From Bacteroidota bacterium (GTDB lineage Bacteria > Bacteroidota > Ignavibacteria > Palsa-1295), in assembly GCA_030706745.1 (NCBI GenBank), contig JAUZNX010000002.1:1-64000 (forward strand): 64,000 nt of DNA, written 5' to 3'. Made by a program: the position numbers and the translations under genes. Below the pieces are notes generated by a model, which was not told the origin of the DNA, ran no database searches, and saw only the letters and a program-made list of their open reading frames with translations. Every line of letters begins with the position of its first letter. The stretch's first letter is position 1. Positions 52,997 through 58,983 of this stretch are shown one piece after another.

Positions 52997-53719
52997 CTAC
53001 TTCCGCCACAACACCGCTTGCGATTGCAGGTTATGTGGCTTCATGCTATTGGAGAAGCCGCTGGTATCCGAATACTCTTCGATGAGGACCGGTCCGACTG
53101 AGCGCGCAAAATAGACTTGCCAGTAAATCGGAAAGCTTGGGGACATCTGGCCGCTGGCGTCATCATGCGTGTAACGAATGACATAGGACTCTCCATACGA
53201 GACGGAAGCAACGGGTCCGATGGCCGCCGGCACGAGCAGCGTATCGAAGTGATCGAGAATATGCGCGGTGATCGTGATACCCGCTCCGAGCCCAGGCCCT
53301 TGAAGCAAACCGGCCGGCCAGGAGCCGCTATCATGTAGTCCGGTGCGCTCCAGCAATTTGAGATCGCCGGGACGACGTCCGGCGGAATCGCCAAAGTAAT
53401 ATCCGGCCGGCAGACTGAAGATCGAGTTCATACCGATGCTGTCAATCGAAATTGTATCACGCCACGAACTGATATGAAACGCATCGTGGCGTAATGTCTG
53501 ATCATAGACAGTGCTGCCGTCGTTCGAAATGAGGAAGTGATCGTTGGAGTCACTTGTCGGCGACATATAGTAGTGCATCCCCGATTCCAGCGCGGAGAGC
53601 GTCCAAAAGAAGTCCACCGGTTGACTTGACGGGGGAGTATTCATTGTCGGCGGAAGCGACTGCGAACACCCCGCGCCAAGTGCGACAAACGCGATCAGCA
53701 GAAAAGAGCGTACGATCAT
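52997..53719 (-). CDS. Lipoprotein in the anti-sigma operon (240 aa)
   Basis: ATG 53719 overlaps the stop of the anti-sigma/barrel gene (ATGA), giving translational coupling. The leader MIVRSFLLIAFVALGAGC has the lipobox GAGC. The mature part is mostly beta with a Ser/Thr/Pro-rich start and no known domain. As third gene after sigma and anti-sigma, it may be a periplasmic or outer-leaflet partner of the anti-sigma protein. Confidence 0.8.
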   Translation of the reverse strand: MIVRSFLLIAFVALGAGCSQSLPPTMNTPPSSQPVDFFWTLSALESGMHYYMSPTSDSNDHFLISNDGSTVYDQTLRHDAFHISSWRDTISIDSIGMNSIFSLPAGYYFGDSAGRRPGDLKLLERTGLHDSGSWPAGLLQGPGLGAGITITAHILDHFDTLLVPAAIGPVASVSYGESYVIRYTHDDASGQMSPSFPIYWQVYFARSVGPVLIEEYSDTSGFSNSMKPHNLQSQAVLWRK

Positions 53720-55131
53720 GGGCGGTATCGAAATCCGGCGCGAAGTCCGACTGCCGAAGTAAACGTTCGTTGTGCCGACGTCTCGGCATGGACGATACCG
53801 GTAACGCCCGCAGGTATCTGCGACGCGGCATCGACCGCTGCCACTCCCCAAATGCCACTCGCGACCAGACCGAAATCGAGTGTCAAATCATCCGAAAGCA
53901 CGCGTGAGACACCGGCGGAAAGAGTCGCGCAGGGCTCCGCGCTCCCTTCGAACGCGAATCCGCCCGATAGGCCCAGCCGCACCGGGTAGTCGCTCGTCGG
54001 AGCAAGCGTCACATGCGTGGATGCGCGGACGTAGTAGGCTTGCGTGCCTTGAATATCGCTCAAGTAAGTCCCGCGAGCGTAATTCGAATTATTGAGCGAC
54101 GGATCGAGCACAAAATGCGTCCCCAATTTTCCATACCACCCAATTCCTGCTTCCATCCCGAACGCGAAAGACTCCGTCAGATCATAGTCTACCGTAATTT
54201 CAGGAGCGTAATTCCGTATCGGCGAAGTAGTACTCGACGGACCAAACGTGGGCAGATAATAACCGCTCGCCGCCATATTCAAGCCGACGGAGAACGGGTG
54301 CACACGATCGCGCGATAAACCGAATGTAATCTCATGCAACGTGCGCGGCATTCGCACCGTGGGAAATGGAATGGCAGCGTCGGCATACATAGTCGGTTGC
54401 CCAACGATGAAAATCGATGCGTCCTGTGGGCCAAGCGCCGGTTGTGCCGATGCTTCGGATGAAGAGCGAGCGACCATCTCGGCTCGACGATGTGTGATAG
54501 ATGGTGCGTGTGCGATAACGGATGCTGGGCGCGCAGTCATCGAGGCAGAGTGCGCGATCGCTGACGATGGTTGACCGAATCTCGAAGAAGAACGCGCAAT
54601 CGCGGGCGACGAATGAGGGGCCATCGAGGACGGTTGATTGATTGCCGACGTCGGATGCTGGCCGCGAACAGTTGATCCAACTTCGGACTTCGTAGCCATC
54701 TGGTTGGGAAGCGATACCACCGGCGAGTTGGAGCTTGCCGGTAGGCTTATAGGAGGATCAATGCGACTGGCATTCCACCAGAGTCCGCCGGCAGTGGCCA
54801 GTATGCCGGCGGCGGATGCCGCGATGATGGCATGATCGCTGAAGAACGATTGGACGGCGCGGAATCCTGAGCCAATGAATCCGGTGGGACGCAGGATCGT
54901 GCGCTCGATGGCGCTGCCGAGTGCAGGCAACCGCGTGGCAAGTTGACGTTCGGCGCTCGCGGGTACGGCAAATGGCCTCCGGCCAGCGGCAAGCAGATCG
55001 TTCATACGCAAGTGCTCATCGAGCACCGCGCGCTTCTCCGGACTTGTCGAAAGCGTGTGAAGCAGCTCGGCACTCGATGACTCATCGAGCGAGCCATCCA
55101 AATAGGCAAGTACATTTTCTTCGAGTGTCAT
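53716..55131 (-). CDS. Dual-membrane anti-sigma / outer-membrane barrel fusion (471 aa)
   Basis: The start ATG 55131 has AAGAGGAAG in the right place. Residues 1-~95 are a helical anti-sigma-type domain (MTLEENVLAYLDGSLDESSS). One membrane helix lies at ~100-119 (HAIIAASAAGILATAGGLWW). A ~130-residue Ser/Pro/Ala/His-rich linker follows (~120-250). The C-terminal ~220 residues form an outer-membrane barrel (FGLSRDRVHPFSVGLNMAASGYYLP; LTLDFGLVASGIWGV; GLRAGFRYRP). One chain thus should span both membranes. This matches the layout of dual-membrane-spanning anti-sigma factors (Dma) described in Bacteroides thetaiotaomicron. It follows the ECF sigma gene and precedes the lipoprotein. Confidence 0.85.
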   Translation of the reverse strand: MTLEENVLAYLDGSLDESSSAELLHTLSTSPEKRAVLDEHLRMNDLLAAGRRPFAVPASAERQLATRLPALGSAIERTILRPTGFIGSGFRAVQSFFSDHAIIAASAAGILATAGGLWWNASRIDPPISLPASSNSPVVSLPNQMATKSEVGSTVRGQHPTSAINQPSSMAPHSSPAIARSSSRFGQPSSAIAHSASMTARPASVIAHAPSITHRRAEMVARSSSEASAQPALGPQDASIFIVGQPTMYADAAIPFPTVRMPRTLHEITFGLSRDRVHPFSVGLNMAASGYYLPTFGPSSTTSPIRNYAPEITVDYDLTESFAFGMEAGIGWYGKLGTHFVLDPSLNNSNYARGTYLSDIQGTQAYYVRASTHVTLAPTSDYPVRLGLSGGFAFEGSAEPCATLSAGVSRVLSDDLTLDFGLVASGIWGVAAVDAASQIPAGVTGIVHAETSAQRTFTSAVGLRAGFRYRP

Positions 55132-55141
55132 ATCTTCCTCT

Positions 55142-55882
55142 TCATTCTGCAAGATAAGGTTGGAGCAGTGTTCGGAGTTTCTCCTTCGCGCGCCAGATCC
55201 GGACTTTGGTAACGGAAAGCGACGTGCCCGTCATCTGCGCGATCTGGGCATAACTAAATCCATCGAACTCGCGGAGTACAAACGCTTCGCGGAATTCCTC
55301 GGGTAGCGTGGCGACCGCATTCTCTATTCGGTCTCGCAAAAAGTGCTGCTCTTCATCGTATTCGGGTGCAAGGCTGCGATCTCGGCTTGCGAGCATCGGA
55401 TGCAGTTCGAGCGAATCCACCGCTTGCCGGCACCGTAATGCATTCAAACAGAGATTGCGCGCGATCGTATACAGCCAGCCCCGAACATTCGAGCCGCTTC
55501 GGAATTGATCCGCACGCTCGTAGGCACGAATAAACACGTCCTGAAACAAATCGCTGGCCCGGTCGGCATCGCGGCCCATCATCCGAAGGCAATAGGTATA
55601 AACATCATTCTTGTAGCGCTTGTACAGCTCCGCGAAAGCCCGATCCGCCGCCGCGCGGTCGCGAGGTTCTGCCGTCGCAGTAACCAACAGATCGAGATCC
55701 GATGCTGTGGCAAGGAATGATTCGAATTGGCTGGTTGCTGCAGCGGGAGGATCTGTGGGCCCAACTGAACCTGTGGAAGAAGCAATCTCAAACGTTCTTT
55801 TTTTCGCGGATGCACGATGTCCTGAGATGCGAATGCTCGCACCGGTTGCCACCCGCCCCAGGACTGTTGGACTGACCGCCAT
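55142..55882 (-). CDS. ECF-type RNA polymerase sigma factor, cognate of the fused anti-sigma
   Basis: The protein has an extra ~60-residue N-terminal tail, then sigma region 2 (FAELYKRYKNDVYTYCLRMMG, DLFQDVFIRAYERADQF, GWLYTIARNLCLNAL) and region 4 (LPEEFREAFVLREFDGFSYAQIAQMTG, SVTKVRIWRAKEKLR). An internal start (e.g. near the LATASDL region) is possible. Its stop lies ten bases before the anti-sigma ATG. First gene of the sigma/anti-sigma-barrel/lipoprotein operon. Confidence 0.92.
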   Translation of the reverse strand: MAVSPTVLGRVATGASIRISGHRASAKKRTFEIASSTGSVGPTDPPAAATSQFESFLATASDLDLLVTATAEPRDRAAADRAFAELYKRYKNDVYTYCLRMMGRDADRASDLFQDVFIRAYERADQFRSGSNVRGWLYTIARNLCLNALRCRQAVDSLELHPMLASRDRSLAPEYDEEQHFLRDRIENAVATLPEEFREAFVLREFDGFSYAQIAQMTGTSLSVTKVRIWRAKEKLRTLLQPYLAE

Positions 55883-55924
55883 ATTGTAAAAACACTTCCC
55901 GAGGCCCGAAGTTACAGCAACGGC

Positions 55925-58855
55925 TCACCGAAGTATGACGACTTTTCGGGTTGCACGCCCACTAAGACCCTCAATTCGCAGAAGATAGGTGCCCGAGGCG
56001 ATATCGTTTAGCAGTAGATGCACCGTTTGCTCGCCCGGCGAACCTTGCACGATTTCACCCAAAGCGGAATGCCCGAGCACGTCCGAAACCGAAACTGTCA
56101 GTGCTTGTGCCAGTGGCATGGAGAGTGTGACATCCAGCGCTCCATCCTGTGTTTGCTCCGCGCGCTGGATTAAGATGCTGCCTGTTCGCATAAAGCCACG
56201 CAGAAGACTATCGCCACACAGGTCTCTGCCGGTGAATGTCGTGAAGACGGCACGTGATGAATACAGAATCTCGCAGCCGGCCCCAGGCCCGGACATGATC
56301 TGCGCGGGCAGTGTGCTTTGCACGCCAATCGGAGATGATGTCGGGTTCGCGACAAAAGTCTGGAAGAGCAAATTTGTCAGCGTGCCCGAAATCCCGAGCG
56401 GACCATTCGTCGATGTAAAGCGGAGTGTGTCGGTAGCGACTCCAGTCAGAAGCGTGCTTCCCCAGCCGGAGGTTAGCGTTCCTTGAGTCCCGGCGCCAGT
56501 GCACCGGAGCAGGCCGTGATCGTATGTCACGAACAGCATAAACTGAGTCACGCTGACACCGATGGGCAAGCCTGTCAACATGACTGTCGCTGAAGCCTGA
56601 TTGCCAAAGCTAACGGGAGCTGTCATAATGCTGAGCCTGGTCGTAGTGGTATCCACATTTACGACTACACTGAATGGCAGCGTGATATCCTTTGTGTGCA
56701 ATTGGTCGCACACCAAATACGTGAGCCGTGCATGAATCGGAGTGTTGTTCGCTTCAGCTCGGGGGAGCAGGGTAAGAAGTAACAACGAGTCGTTTCCGTT
56801 GACCGTGAGGCTGGTGTCGATCGTGACGATTAATTCGCCGTTTGCCCCGCCTGTGGTCGTAACCGGCAGCGTTCGGAGCAATCCGGTCGTTGTGACACTC
56901 TTGAATTCGAAACGTGACGTGTCAAACGTGATTTCGATTTTGTTTGGCAAAAAGCTCTCGTTCGCACCCAGTATAGAATCGAGCAGCAGGTGAAGCTCAA
57001 GTGGCTTGCATAGGATTGCCGCCGAGGAATCCATCGTGAGCGCATGCCGGAGTGTATCAGTCGCGGCGAGTACCGGGAATTGGGCCGGGGTTGTTTCGAG
57101 CAATTCGATGGCGTCGGCACATAGAGTTGCGCCGGGTGTCAGCACTGCGAGCGCGGCGGTCCGCTCGCCATGGAAGATTAGCCGGAAGAGCGGGCTATCG
57201 ATTATGCTCGGTTCAGCAATGATGTTCACCGTTATGAATCCCGGTGTCGTGGAATCGATCGAGATCGAGGCACTCTCTGGAGGTAATAGCGACTGGAATC
57301 CGGAGAACGACGTGATGAGCGGGTCCAACGCAACCGTGACAGTCAGGCTCATGACACCTTCGCTATCCGCGAATGGCGGGCTGACTGAGAACGTCGCTCG
57401 AAAATCGTGACACGCCATCGCTGAATCCACTTTAACGTTCAGCGTGTGCTTAATCGTATCGCGGCGTACTTCAGGAGATATCGTCCCCGGAAGGAAAGTA
57501 TATGCATCCGCCGACTGCCAACCGGCAGCGACAGCAAAAACCGGTACGGGTGATGTGAGGCTGTGGACTCCTGGTGAAATGGGAGTAACAAGCGTCGATT
57601 GCGCGCTCCTGTAAATCTGTGACCGGGTCCCCGCAAGAGAGCCGATCAACTGATTGTCCAGACGGATCTGGCCTTCCGAAGGAGTTGGGTAAATCATGGA
57701 GACATAGTGCCGGAACGGGTATGGCGACTCAGCGAAGAGAGGCGCATTCCAAAGCAAAGTGTCTGCCCAGAGTGAACTGTCAAGAATACTGACCAGCGTT
57801 GGATCGCTTTGACCGTTGAGTACCTGTGAGTTGCCGACCGCCAGCTCATGAAGCGATATTGGCGTACTCGCGGTGATATCGGCTGCACCCCGAAACGAGA
57901 GCGCAATACGGCCTGGTGCAAATCCCGGAGATCCATTGACCGAAAAATTAAACGGACGGTCGCTCGTCAGAAGAGCTCGCACATTGGCCGTATCGGTACC
58001 GTCCGCATTGCCGAGCGGAGAAATATAATAATGCTGACTCCAGTGGCGCTTCCCAAGGATCTCATCCATCAATTCATTGCAGGACTCGACCGTTAGCGGG
58101 ACATAACCGCACGTTGTCCCAACGATCACACTGACTGGTTTCGAGGAAACAACAGTGGAGTTCGAAAGCGATGATCTTGTAGGAACACCGAATGAGTCGG
58201 CTTTGACAATGTAACACTCACCGGCATTCAAGGTGACGGTAAACGGGACATTCGCCGGCTGCTTTAGCATCGTCAACACCGAAGGGGTGATCGTGACCAC
58301 CGTGTTGTCCTGCGGAGCCGTTACGAGAATCTCGGAATGATTGGGTTCGAGCCTGCCAATTGTCGTGTCTTGGCTAAGAATCGCGTCATCCCACTCACCC
58401 CACTCGGCGACCATGTAATCCGTGTCGAGCGATTCGTCTGGATAAAGTTGAGTCGCATCGCCTGCTTCGAGGATGAAGTCATGCAGCGTAAGGTTCACCG
58501 GCTCGTTTGTCCGGACAATCAAGCCCTTGGATGTTTTGCCAAGATCATTCAGGTGAATCAGTTTCGTCGGAAGCGAAATGACTGTCGCCTGCATGGCCGT
58601 GAACGAAAAATCCTGGGCGTATCCACTTGGCGAAGTGATCGTGCCGCATCCATCGTACGGGCTGAGCACGGTCAAGATCAGCGATAATGAAGAGAGGTCG
58701 GCGCCTGGAAGATTCTCGGGGCCTTCAATGATACCGAAAGTGAAATGCCGGCCTGAGCGCTGGAGCGAATTCTGCCCAATGCCTGCGGTCACGCCGAGTG
58801 TCGCTAGGAGCACGGTGACGACCGATGCAATTCGTAGGAACGAAAAAAATCGCAT
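55925..58855 (-). CDS. T9SS-exported protein with IgGFc-binding domain (976 aa)
   Basis: ATG 58855 starts a signal peptide (MRFFSFLRIASVVTVLLATL). The N-terminal ~430 residues (FTFGIIEGPENLPGAD; ITSPSGYAQDF; VIVGTTCGYVPLTVESCNELMDEILG) match the IgGFc-binding N-terminal domain. Two or three cohesin-like beta domains follow (~480-890). The last ~85 residues (VSVSDVLGHSALGE; ASGTYLLRIEG; RKVVILR) are a T9SS type A sorting domain. A closely related but shorter paralogue lies at 61416-63059. Probably a secreted adhesin or surface protein. Confidence 0.9.
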   Translation of the reverse strand: MRFFSFLRIASVVTVLLATLGVTAGIGQNSLQRSGRHFTFGIIEGPENLPGADLSSLSLILTVLSPYDGCGTITSPSGYAQDFSFTAMQATVISLPTKLIHLNDLGKTSKGLIVRTNEPVNLTLHDFILEAGDATQLYPDESLDTDYMVAEWGEWDDAILSQDTTIGRLEPNHSEILVTAPQDNTVVTITPSVLTMLKQPANVPFTVTLNAGECYIVKADSFGVPTRSSLSNSTVVSSKPVSVIVGTTCGYVPLTVESCNELMDEILGKRHWSQHYYISPLGNADGTDTANVRALLTSDRPFNFSVNGSPGFAPGRIALSFRGAADITASTPISLHELAVGNSQVLNGQSDPTLVSILDSSLWADTLLWNAPLFAESPYPFRHYVSMIYPTPSEGQIRLDNQLIGSLAGTRSQIYRSAQSTLVTPISPGVHSLTSPVPVFAVAAGWQSADAYTFLPGTISPEVRRDTIKHTLNVKVDSAMACHDFRATFSVSPPFADSEGVMSLTVTVALDPLITSFSGFQSLLPPESASISIDSTTPGFITVNIIAEPSIIDSPLFRLIFHGERTAALAVLTPGATLCADAIELLETTPAQFPVLAATDTLRHALTMDSSAAILCKPLELHLLLDSILGANESFLPNKIEITFDTSRFEFKSVTTTGLLRTLPVTTTGGANGELIVTIDTSLTVNGNDSLLLLTLLPRAEANNTPIHARLTYLVCDQLHTKDITLPFSVVVNVDTTTTRLSIMTAPVSFGNQASATVMLTGLPIGVSVTQFMLFVTYDHGLLRCTGAGTQGTLTSGWGSTLLTGVATDTLRFTSTNGPLGISGTLTNLLFQTFVANPTSSPIGVQSTLPAQIMSGPGAGCEILYSSRAVFTTFTGRDLCGDSLLRGFMRTGSILIQRAEQTQDGALDVTLSMPLAQALTVSVSDVLGHSALGEIVQGSPGEQTVHLLLNDIASGTYLLRIEGLSGRATRKVVILR

Positions 58856-58983
58856 ACTACAGGAACACGAATCGGCACGCATGGTTGCCGAGGAACTTCA
58901 AATATGAGCCAGCTGCCGGGTATGAGGCTTCGCCGGATTCCCAGGACACCCGAGACCGCTAGAATGCGGGAATGGTAGTTGAA

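Follow-up and report, generated by a model that had tools for sequence, protein, structure and literature searches.

Our analysis suggests that three genes at positions 52997 to 55882 of the window (the whole 64,000-nucleotide stretch of Bacteroidota bacterium DNA analysed here, from contig JAUZNX010000002.1 of assembly GCA_030706745.1), all on the minus strand, form a cell-surface sensing switch, in which an anti-sigma factor ending in an outer-membrane barrel holds an ECF sigma factor until the outer membrane changes. We give this reading a probability of roughly 70%. Computation supports the domain order, the barrel fold, the conservation of the operon, the promoter and the predicted targets; sigma binding, the signal, proteolysis and the exact role of the lipoprotein encoded by the third gene are the parts that we infer. 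In the resting state, the ECF sigma would be held in the cytoplasm by the N-terminal part of the barrel protein, a single chain that would continue through the inner membrane and the periplasm and end in the outer membrane as an 8-stranded barrel. The signal would be an outer-membrane change, for example in the occupancy of the barrel or lipoprotein, or a stress on lipids or surface proteins. The tether would then be lost; regulated proteolysis with RseP as its last step is the most likely route, and a protease of the RseP type was found. The freed sigma would transcribe its own operon from TGTAACTTC-N12-GTGTTTTT and would also use the same promoter before genes for exported proteins, most of them lipoproteins. 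The lipoprotein of the operon is coupled to the barrel in translation, and at the outer membrane it would most likely act next to the barrel, as a partner or as a feedback ligand.

The preliminary description of this DNA had placed the ECF sigma, anti-sigma/barrel and lipoprotein genes in one operon, and all three genes were confirmed there (Table 1). It was also right about the ATGA overlap of the lipoprotein start with the barrel stop: the lipoprotein gene runs from 53719 to 52997 and the barrel gene ends at 53716. The ATG of the barrel gene, at 55131, lies 10 nt past the sigma stop; an alternative TTG at 55152 is possible and would overlap the sigma gene. On the same strand, 42 nt upstream of the sigma gene, ends a gene for an IgGFc-binding-domain protein with a T9SS tail, which is syntenic in genome G001 (67% identity); its membership of the operon is uncertain. 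The closest named loci come from Candidatus Kapaibacterium sp. (61% identity for the barrel protein; NCBI places Kapaibacterium in the phylum Bacteroidota), several Bacteroidetes MAGs and one Ignavibacteriae MAG. We assign the genome carrying the window to the Kapabacteria. It has 24 matches to sigma70 region 2 and six paralogs of the barrel anti-sigma, relatives of which occur across the class.

Table 1. Positions of the features discussed (window coordinates, except the last row, which gives contig:position in genome G000).
Feature	Position	Strand	Basis
ECF sigma factor, 246 aa	55142..55882	-	Pfam; PDB relatives
Single-chain dual-membrane anti-sigma factor (predicted), 471 aa	53716..55131	-	NCBIfam match, AlphaFold, VIA-align
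Anti-sigma domain, residues 3-77, four helices, no Hx3Cx2C zinc motif	54901..55125	-	NCBIfam, AlphaFold
Inner-membrane helix, residues 101-122	54766..54831	-	AlphaFold; hydrophobic stretch
Disordered periplasmic tether, residues 123-276, S/A/P-rich	54304..54765	-	Low pLDDT; composition
C-terminal 8-stranded outer-membrane beta-barrel, residues 277-471	53719..54303	-	AlphaFold; VIA-align
Lipoprotein, 240 aa, ATGA overlap with barrel gene	52997..53719	-	Lipobox Cys18; orthologs
IgGFc-binding-domain protein with T9SS tail	55925..58882	-	Pfam; synteny
Predicted autoregulatory ECF promoter, TGTAACTTC-N12-GTGTTTTT	55888..55916	-	Upstream alignment, 5 species
Group-e promoter sites, G000	C1:262145, C2:418139, C3:134213, C3:182012, C3:314735, C16:1686		Exact match

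The first of the three genes encodes a sigma factor, with Pfam matches to Sigma70_r2 (E 1.4e-18) and r4_2 (E 6.5e-14), sigma2 and sigma4 occupying residues 86-153 and 184-236, and with matches to solved ECF sigma factors in the PDB. When the DNA upstream of the sigma genes was aligned within each paralog group, conserved blocks emerged that were specific to the group and had fixed or nearly fixed spacing. Upstream of the group-a sigma, to which the window locus belongs, 17 bases of the predicted promoter are invariant, with fixed spacing, in 5 species. Group b has CGCAACTTTG followed by GTGTTC, group c1 has TGTGACTCTT followed by GTGTT, and group e has TTGTAACCG-N13-GCGTTTT; in groups c2 and d a clear common block was harder to see. 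Blocks of this kind are what would be expected if each sigma factor transcribes its own operon, and their position upstream of the sigma genes implies autoregulation and separate channels. In agreement with the autoregulation predicted for the window locus, the operon of dma2, which encodes an anti-sigma factor of Bacteroides thetaiotaomicron, is itself among the most upregulated genes in the dma2 mutant (PMC13088901). Note that at the window locus the sigma ATG lies 5 nt past the -10 element (about 5-9 nt across five orthologs), and that the ATG of target genes is often within about 20 nt of the motif; the group-a transcript is likely to be leaderless and to be translated as such.

Pattern searches in seven congeners were used to predict the regulon. 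The exact motif TGTAACTTC-N12-GTGTTT occurred nine times in the five congeners with a group-a module, before their own operons and at four other sites, and was absent from G002 and G003, where no close group-a ortholog was found; by our own arithmetic, about 0.007 exact matches per genome would be expected by chance. The four sites outside the module lie 13-28 nt before genes for exported proteins, three of which are lipoproteins. In both G000 and G006 the site is followed by one and the same pair of LVIVD-repeat lipoproteins (51% and 49% identity), which none of the other five genomes was found to have. When up to one mismatch was allowed, 9 of the 17 non-self sites in the five genomes preceded lipoproteins and 13 preceded exported proteins, compared with 0.45% and 4.5% at random positions. 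Both counts were obtained by reading the sequences, the nine lipoproteins including a target on G000:C1 counted for its LLLSAC lipobox, and a strict rule gave eight lipoproteins; some sites with one mismatch may be those of a different sigma paralog. From these sites, the sigma of the window locus appears to control surface lipoproteins. Group e shows a similar pattern with a different set of targets. Its exact promoter was found six times in the window genome (Table 1), while G001 has nine copies; the spacers are often almost the same. The targets in the window genome, where a start was found, are mostly exported and include several propeller-type proteins of 480-500 aa, plus the group's own sigma.

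We compared the neighbourhoods of 73 loci, drawn from the same genus, family and class and related by descent. The sigma gene lies directly upstream of the barrel gene in 65 of them. The gene following the barrel carries a strict lipoprotein signal in 48/73 loci, compared with 20/347 of the other genes of the same loci (Fisher p 1e-28, a value that the common ancestry of the loci makes an overstatement). The lipoprotein is thus a recurrent component of the barrel anti-sigma operons. Its position and lipidation signal recur while its family differs between clades: proteins like the operon lipoprotein (P0003), the same with a beta-propeller insert, Ig-like, TIG and others, among which no common family was found. 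In a few operons, such as those of group e and L167, the barrel has no lipoprotein behind it. In one paralog group the barrel anti-sigma has a different neighbourhood, lying in L059:2494-7862 (G000:C16) directly upstream of yceD, plsX, fabH and fabD, a fatty-acid/phospholipid synthesis cluster, and likewise in L071, L076, L082, L086 and L094; this assignment comes from Pfam in L059 and partly in L094, and from similar gene sizes and order in the others. A link of a dual-membrane sensor to lipid supply is possible. L087:3434-5497 encodes a 687-aa variant with no adjoining sigma; Pfam matched nothing in its N-terminal extension.

The lipoprotein had been suggested as a possible new component here. 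Its recurrence strengthens the idea that it is a component, but it is not unique to this locus, since the Dma2 operon has one too. In genomes that gene content labels as Phocaeicola/Bacteroides-like, this operon reads das2 - dma2 - DUF4943 - DUF4858 - NMO, the order of BT_1559 to BT_1555 in B. thetaiotaomicron, DUF4943 being the family of BT_1557 (PMC13088901). The DUF4943 third gene has a clear lipobox in L159 (4394-5986), and in L158 (4139-5764) its signal peptide contains a Cys; the lipoprotein of the Dma2 operon has been described only as a protein of unknown function (PMC13088901). The 240-aa lipoprotein of the window matched nothing in Pfam (E <= 1) or NCBIfam. This includes the MucB/RseB domains, as well as NigD_N and NigD_C, both of which the same search found in Phocaeicola-type neighbours. 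Its structural model (pLDDT 52) had no Foldseek match at E <= 0.001, and the top VIA-align matches, all with Z < 8, were 4fvs (Z 7.2), 2in5 (Z 6.7) and 3fzx (Z 6.3). An iterated profile of the lipoprotein also matched a neighbouring 432-aa gene; this match was attributed to the propeller repeats of long family members and set aside.

What the lipoprotein does can be read in two ways, as output or as sensor, which we rate nearly equal. It could be only an output of the sigma factor, like NigD or BT_1557, with no part in sensing, and to this we give somewhat less than an even chance. The predicted trans targets are also lipoproteins, and the lipoproteins of different clades lack a common family, as this reading would have it; however, the gene lies directly behind the barrel gene in most clades, often overlapping it, as would be expected of a stoichiometric partner rather than of one target among many. 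Deletion of BT_1557 in the B. thetaiotaomicron dma2 mutant left vesiculation unchanged (PMC13088901), a result that does not decide about sensing because sensing would act upstream of the dma2 mutant. The second reading, to which we give about the same chance, makes the lipoprotein a dedicated co-sensor, bound to the barrel or threaded through it, in a role like that of RseB on RseA or RcsF on OmpA. The ATGA coupling and the preserved gene order point this way, as do the lipobox Cys18, invariant among the five short orthologs, and the propeller-like insert inside the same lipoprotein domain in the long lipoproteins of other paralog groups (L060:6023-7516, L101:5422-7068 and similar). The structural matches are consistent with a tentative YmcC/GfcB-like fold, which would also suit a co-sensor, but the low confidence of the model and the absence of an RseB-family match in Pfam weigh against the co-sensor reading.

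The 471-aa protein is predicted to reach, in a single chain, from the cytoplasm across both membranes to the cell surface. The whole-family alignment was too diverse for a scan of the sequence collection, which was made with seven closer sequences, and the AlphaFold model was computed on seven homologs. In this model four helices lie at the N-terminus, another covers residues 101-122, and strands dominate from residue 280 to the end; pLDDT is below 50 over residues 69-273 and mostly 63-92 in the C-terminal domain. The anti-sigma domain that had been described is supported by these four helices, by a weak match of residues 5-82 to the anti-sigmaE model NCBIfam PRK13920 (E 2.4e-4, under its cut-off) and by weak RseA_N or zf-HC2 matches in relatives. 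The inner-membrane helix was likewise recovered, a hydrophobic stretch being found in all 73 relatives. The linker, given before as ~130 residues, is present and slightly longer, at about 150. As for the barrel, the proposed AlphaFold check was favourable: residues 277-471 match the NspA barrel with Z 16.2 over 141 aligned residues and OmpA with Z 16.2 (VIA-align), PagL and OmpW following close behind. The chain ends in F, W or Y in 55/73 barrel proteins, compared with 9% of other proteins (our own summed counts), which fits the expectation for outer-membrane barrels; together with the adjacency of the sigma gene, this indicates that the arrangement is not due to chance. An OmpA-type barrel on a long linker might suggest a protein whose main task is to tie the two membranes together and whose anti-sigma domain is vestigial. 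This is very improbable, given that the N-terminal domain holds the best-conserved stretch of the family (DGxL, with G13 invariant), that a sigma gene adjoins in most loci and that the promoter is conserved to the base. Equally improbable is a soluble periplasmic beta domain in place of the barrel: the window copy does end in YRP, with no terminal aromatic, but the aromatic ends of its relatives and Z scores of 15-17 to NspA/OmpA barrels argue against it.

A switch of this kind resembles Dma1, Dma2 and Dma3 with their Das sigmas in B. thetaiotaomicron, which have the order anti-sigma domain, helix, disordered tether and C-terminal barrel with an adjoining ECF gene (PMC13088901), and the Dma2 operon also has a lipoprotein as its third gene. 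The match to Dma claimed earlier held for this architecture, sigma adjacency included. Sequence comparison did not establish membership of the Dma family: with hhalign, the kapabacterial profile gave a probability of 5.9% against four Phocaeicola-type Dma1/Dma2 proteins, a Dma profile of only 4 sequences, and a single profile match to a Dma1 (E 2e-6) came from a tiny database. Unlike Dma, the window genome has six paralogs and a different lipoprotein family. The Das sigmas form their own clade, separate from the kapabacterial sigma, and joining them was not rejected (AU p 0.18), so that an ECF21 affiliation of the kapabacterial sigma is possible. Since a single clade was not rejected whether the Bacteroides Das proteins were included or left out, these tests are uninformative. 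Since architecture, adjacency and phylum agree with Dma but sequence homology is not established, we describe the locus as a Dma-like variant and not as a proven Dma. A Dma3-like arrangement was seen in L210:3422-4914, where a sigma domain and then a membrane helix are followed by an overlapping 269-aa ORF.

In Phocaeicola vulgatus, the EcfO/Reo system, known also from Bacteroides fragilis, follows the same logic by experiment: it drives nigD surface lipoproteins (PMC13114119) and responds to envelope-damaging toxins (PMC9308784). It shares with the window locus a span from cytoplasm to surface, predicted here, and a regulon led by surface lipoproteins. It differs in that the lipoproteins predicted as targets at the window locus belong to LVIVD, CarboxypepD_reg or other types, and that NigD models do not match the lipoprotein of the operon. 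At L208:4422-7195 and L209:4490-7200, in Phocaeicola-type genomes, a gene for a nigD lipoprotein is divergently oriented to Dma1. As in TonB-dependent transducer/FecR signalling, the state of the outer membrane would be relayed to an ECF sigma, but here one chain would do the work of two proteins, and Pfam found no FecR or TonB-receptor match. In the RpoE-RseA-RseB system of E. coli the gene order is sigma, membrane anti-sigma and envelope protein; RseB is a soluble periplasmic protein and RseA has no outer-membrane domain. The window locus has the same gene order, and two family members show the weak RseA_N match, but it adds a predicted outer-membrane domain and its lipoprotein does not match the RseB family.

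What is new here are the six barrel anti-sigma paralogs, their class-wide relatives, the recurrent lipoprotein, the group-specific promoters and the predicted targets. A broader reading, which we consider rather unlikely, would make the dual-membrane anti-sigma a general signalling architecture of deep-branching Bacteroidota, of separate origin or very early split from the gut Dma, with up to six parallel channels that have distinct promoters. In each channel a barrel would use its own co-encoded lipoprotein as a co-sensor for a particular ligand, and each would rewrite its own share of the surface proteome. While the descriptions of Dma factors come from gut Bacteroides, the same architecture is now found in a distant class of Bacteroidota. 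The conserved promoters of the paralogs make their regulons predictable, and the recurrent lipoprotein offers a definite candidate for the partner that is missing, be it a sensor or an output.
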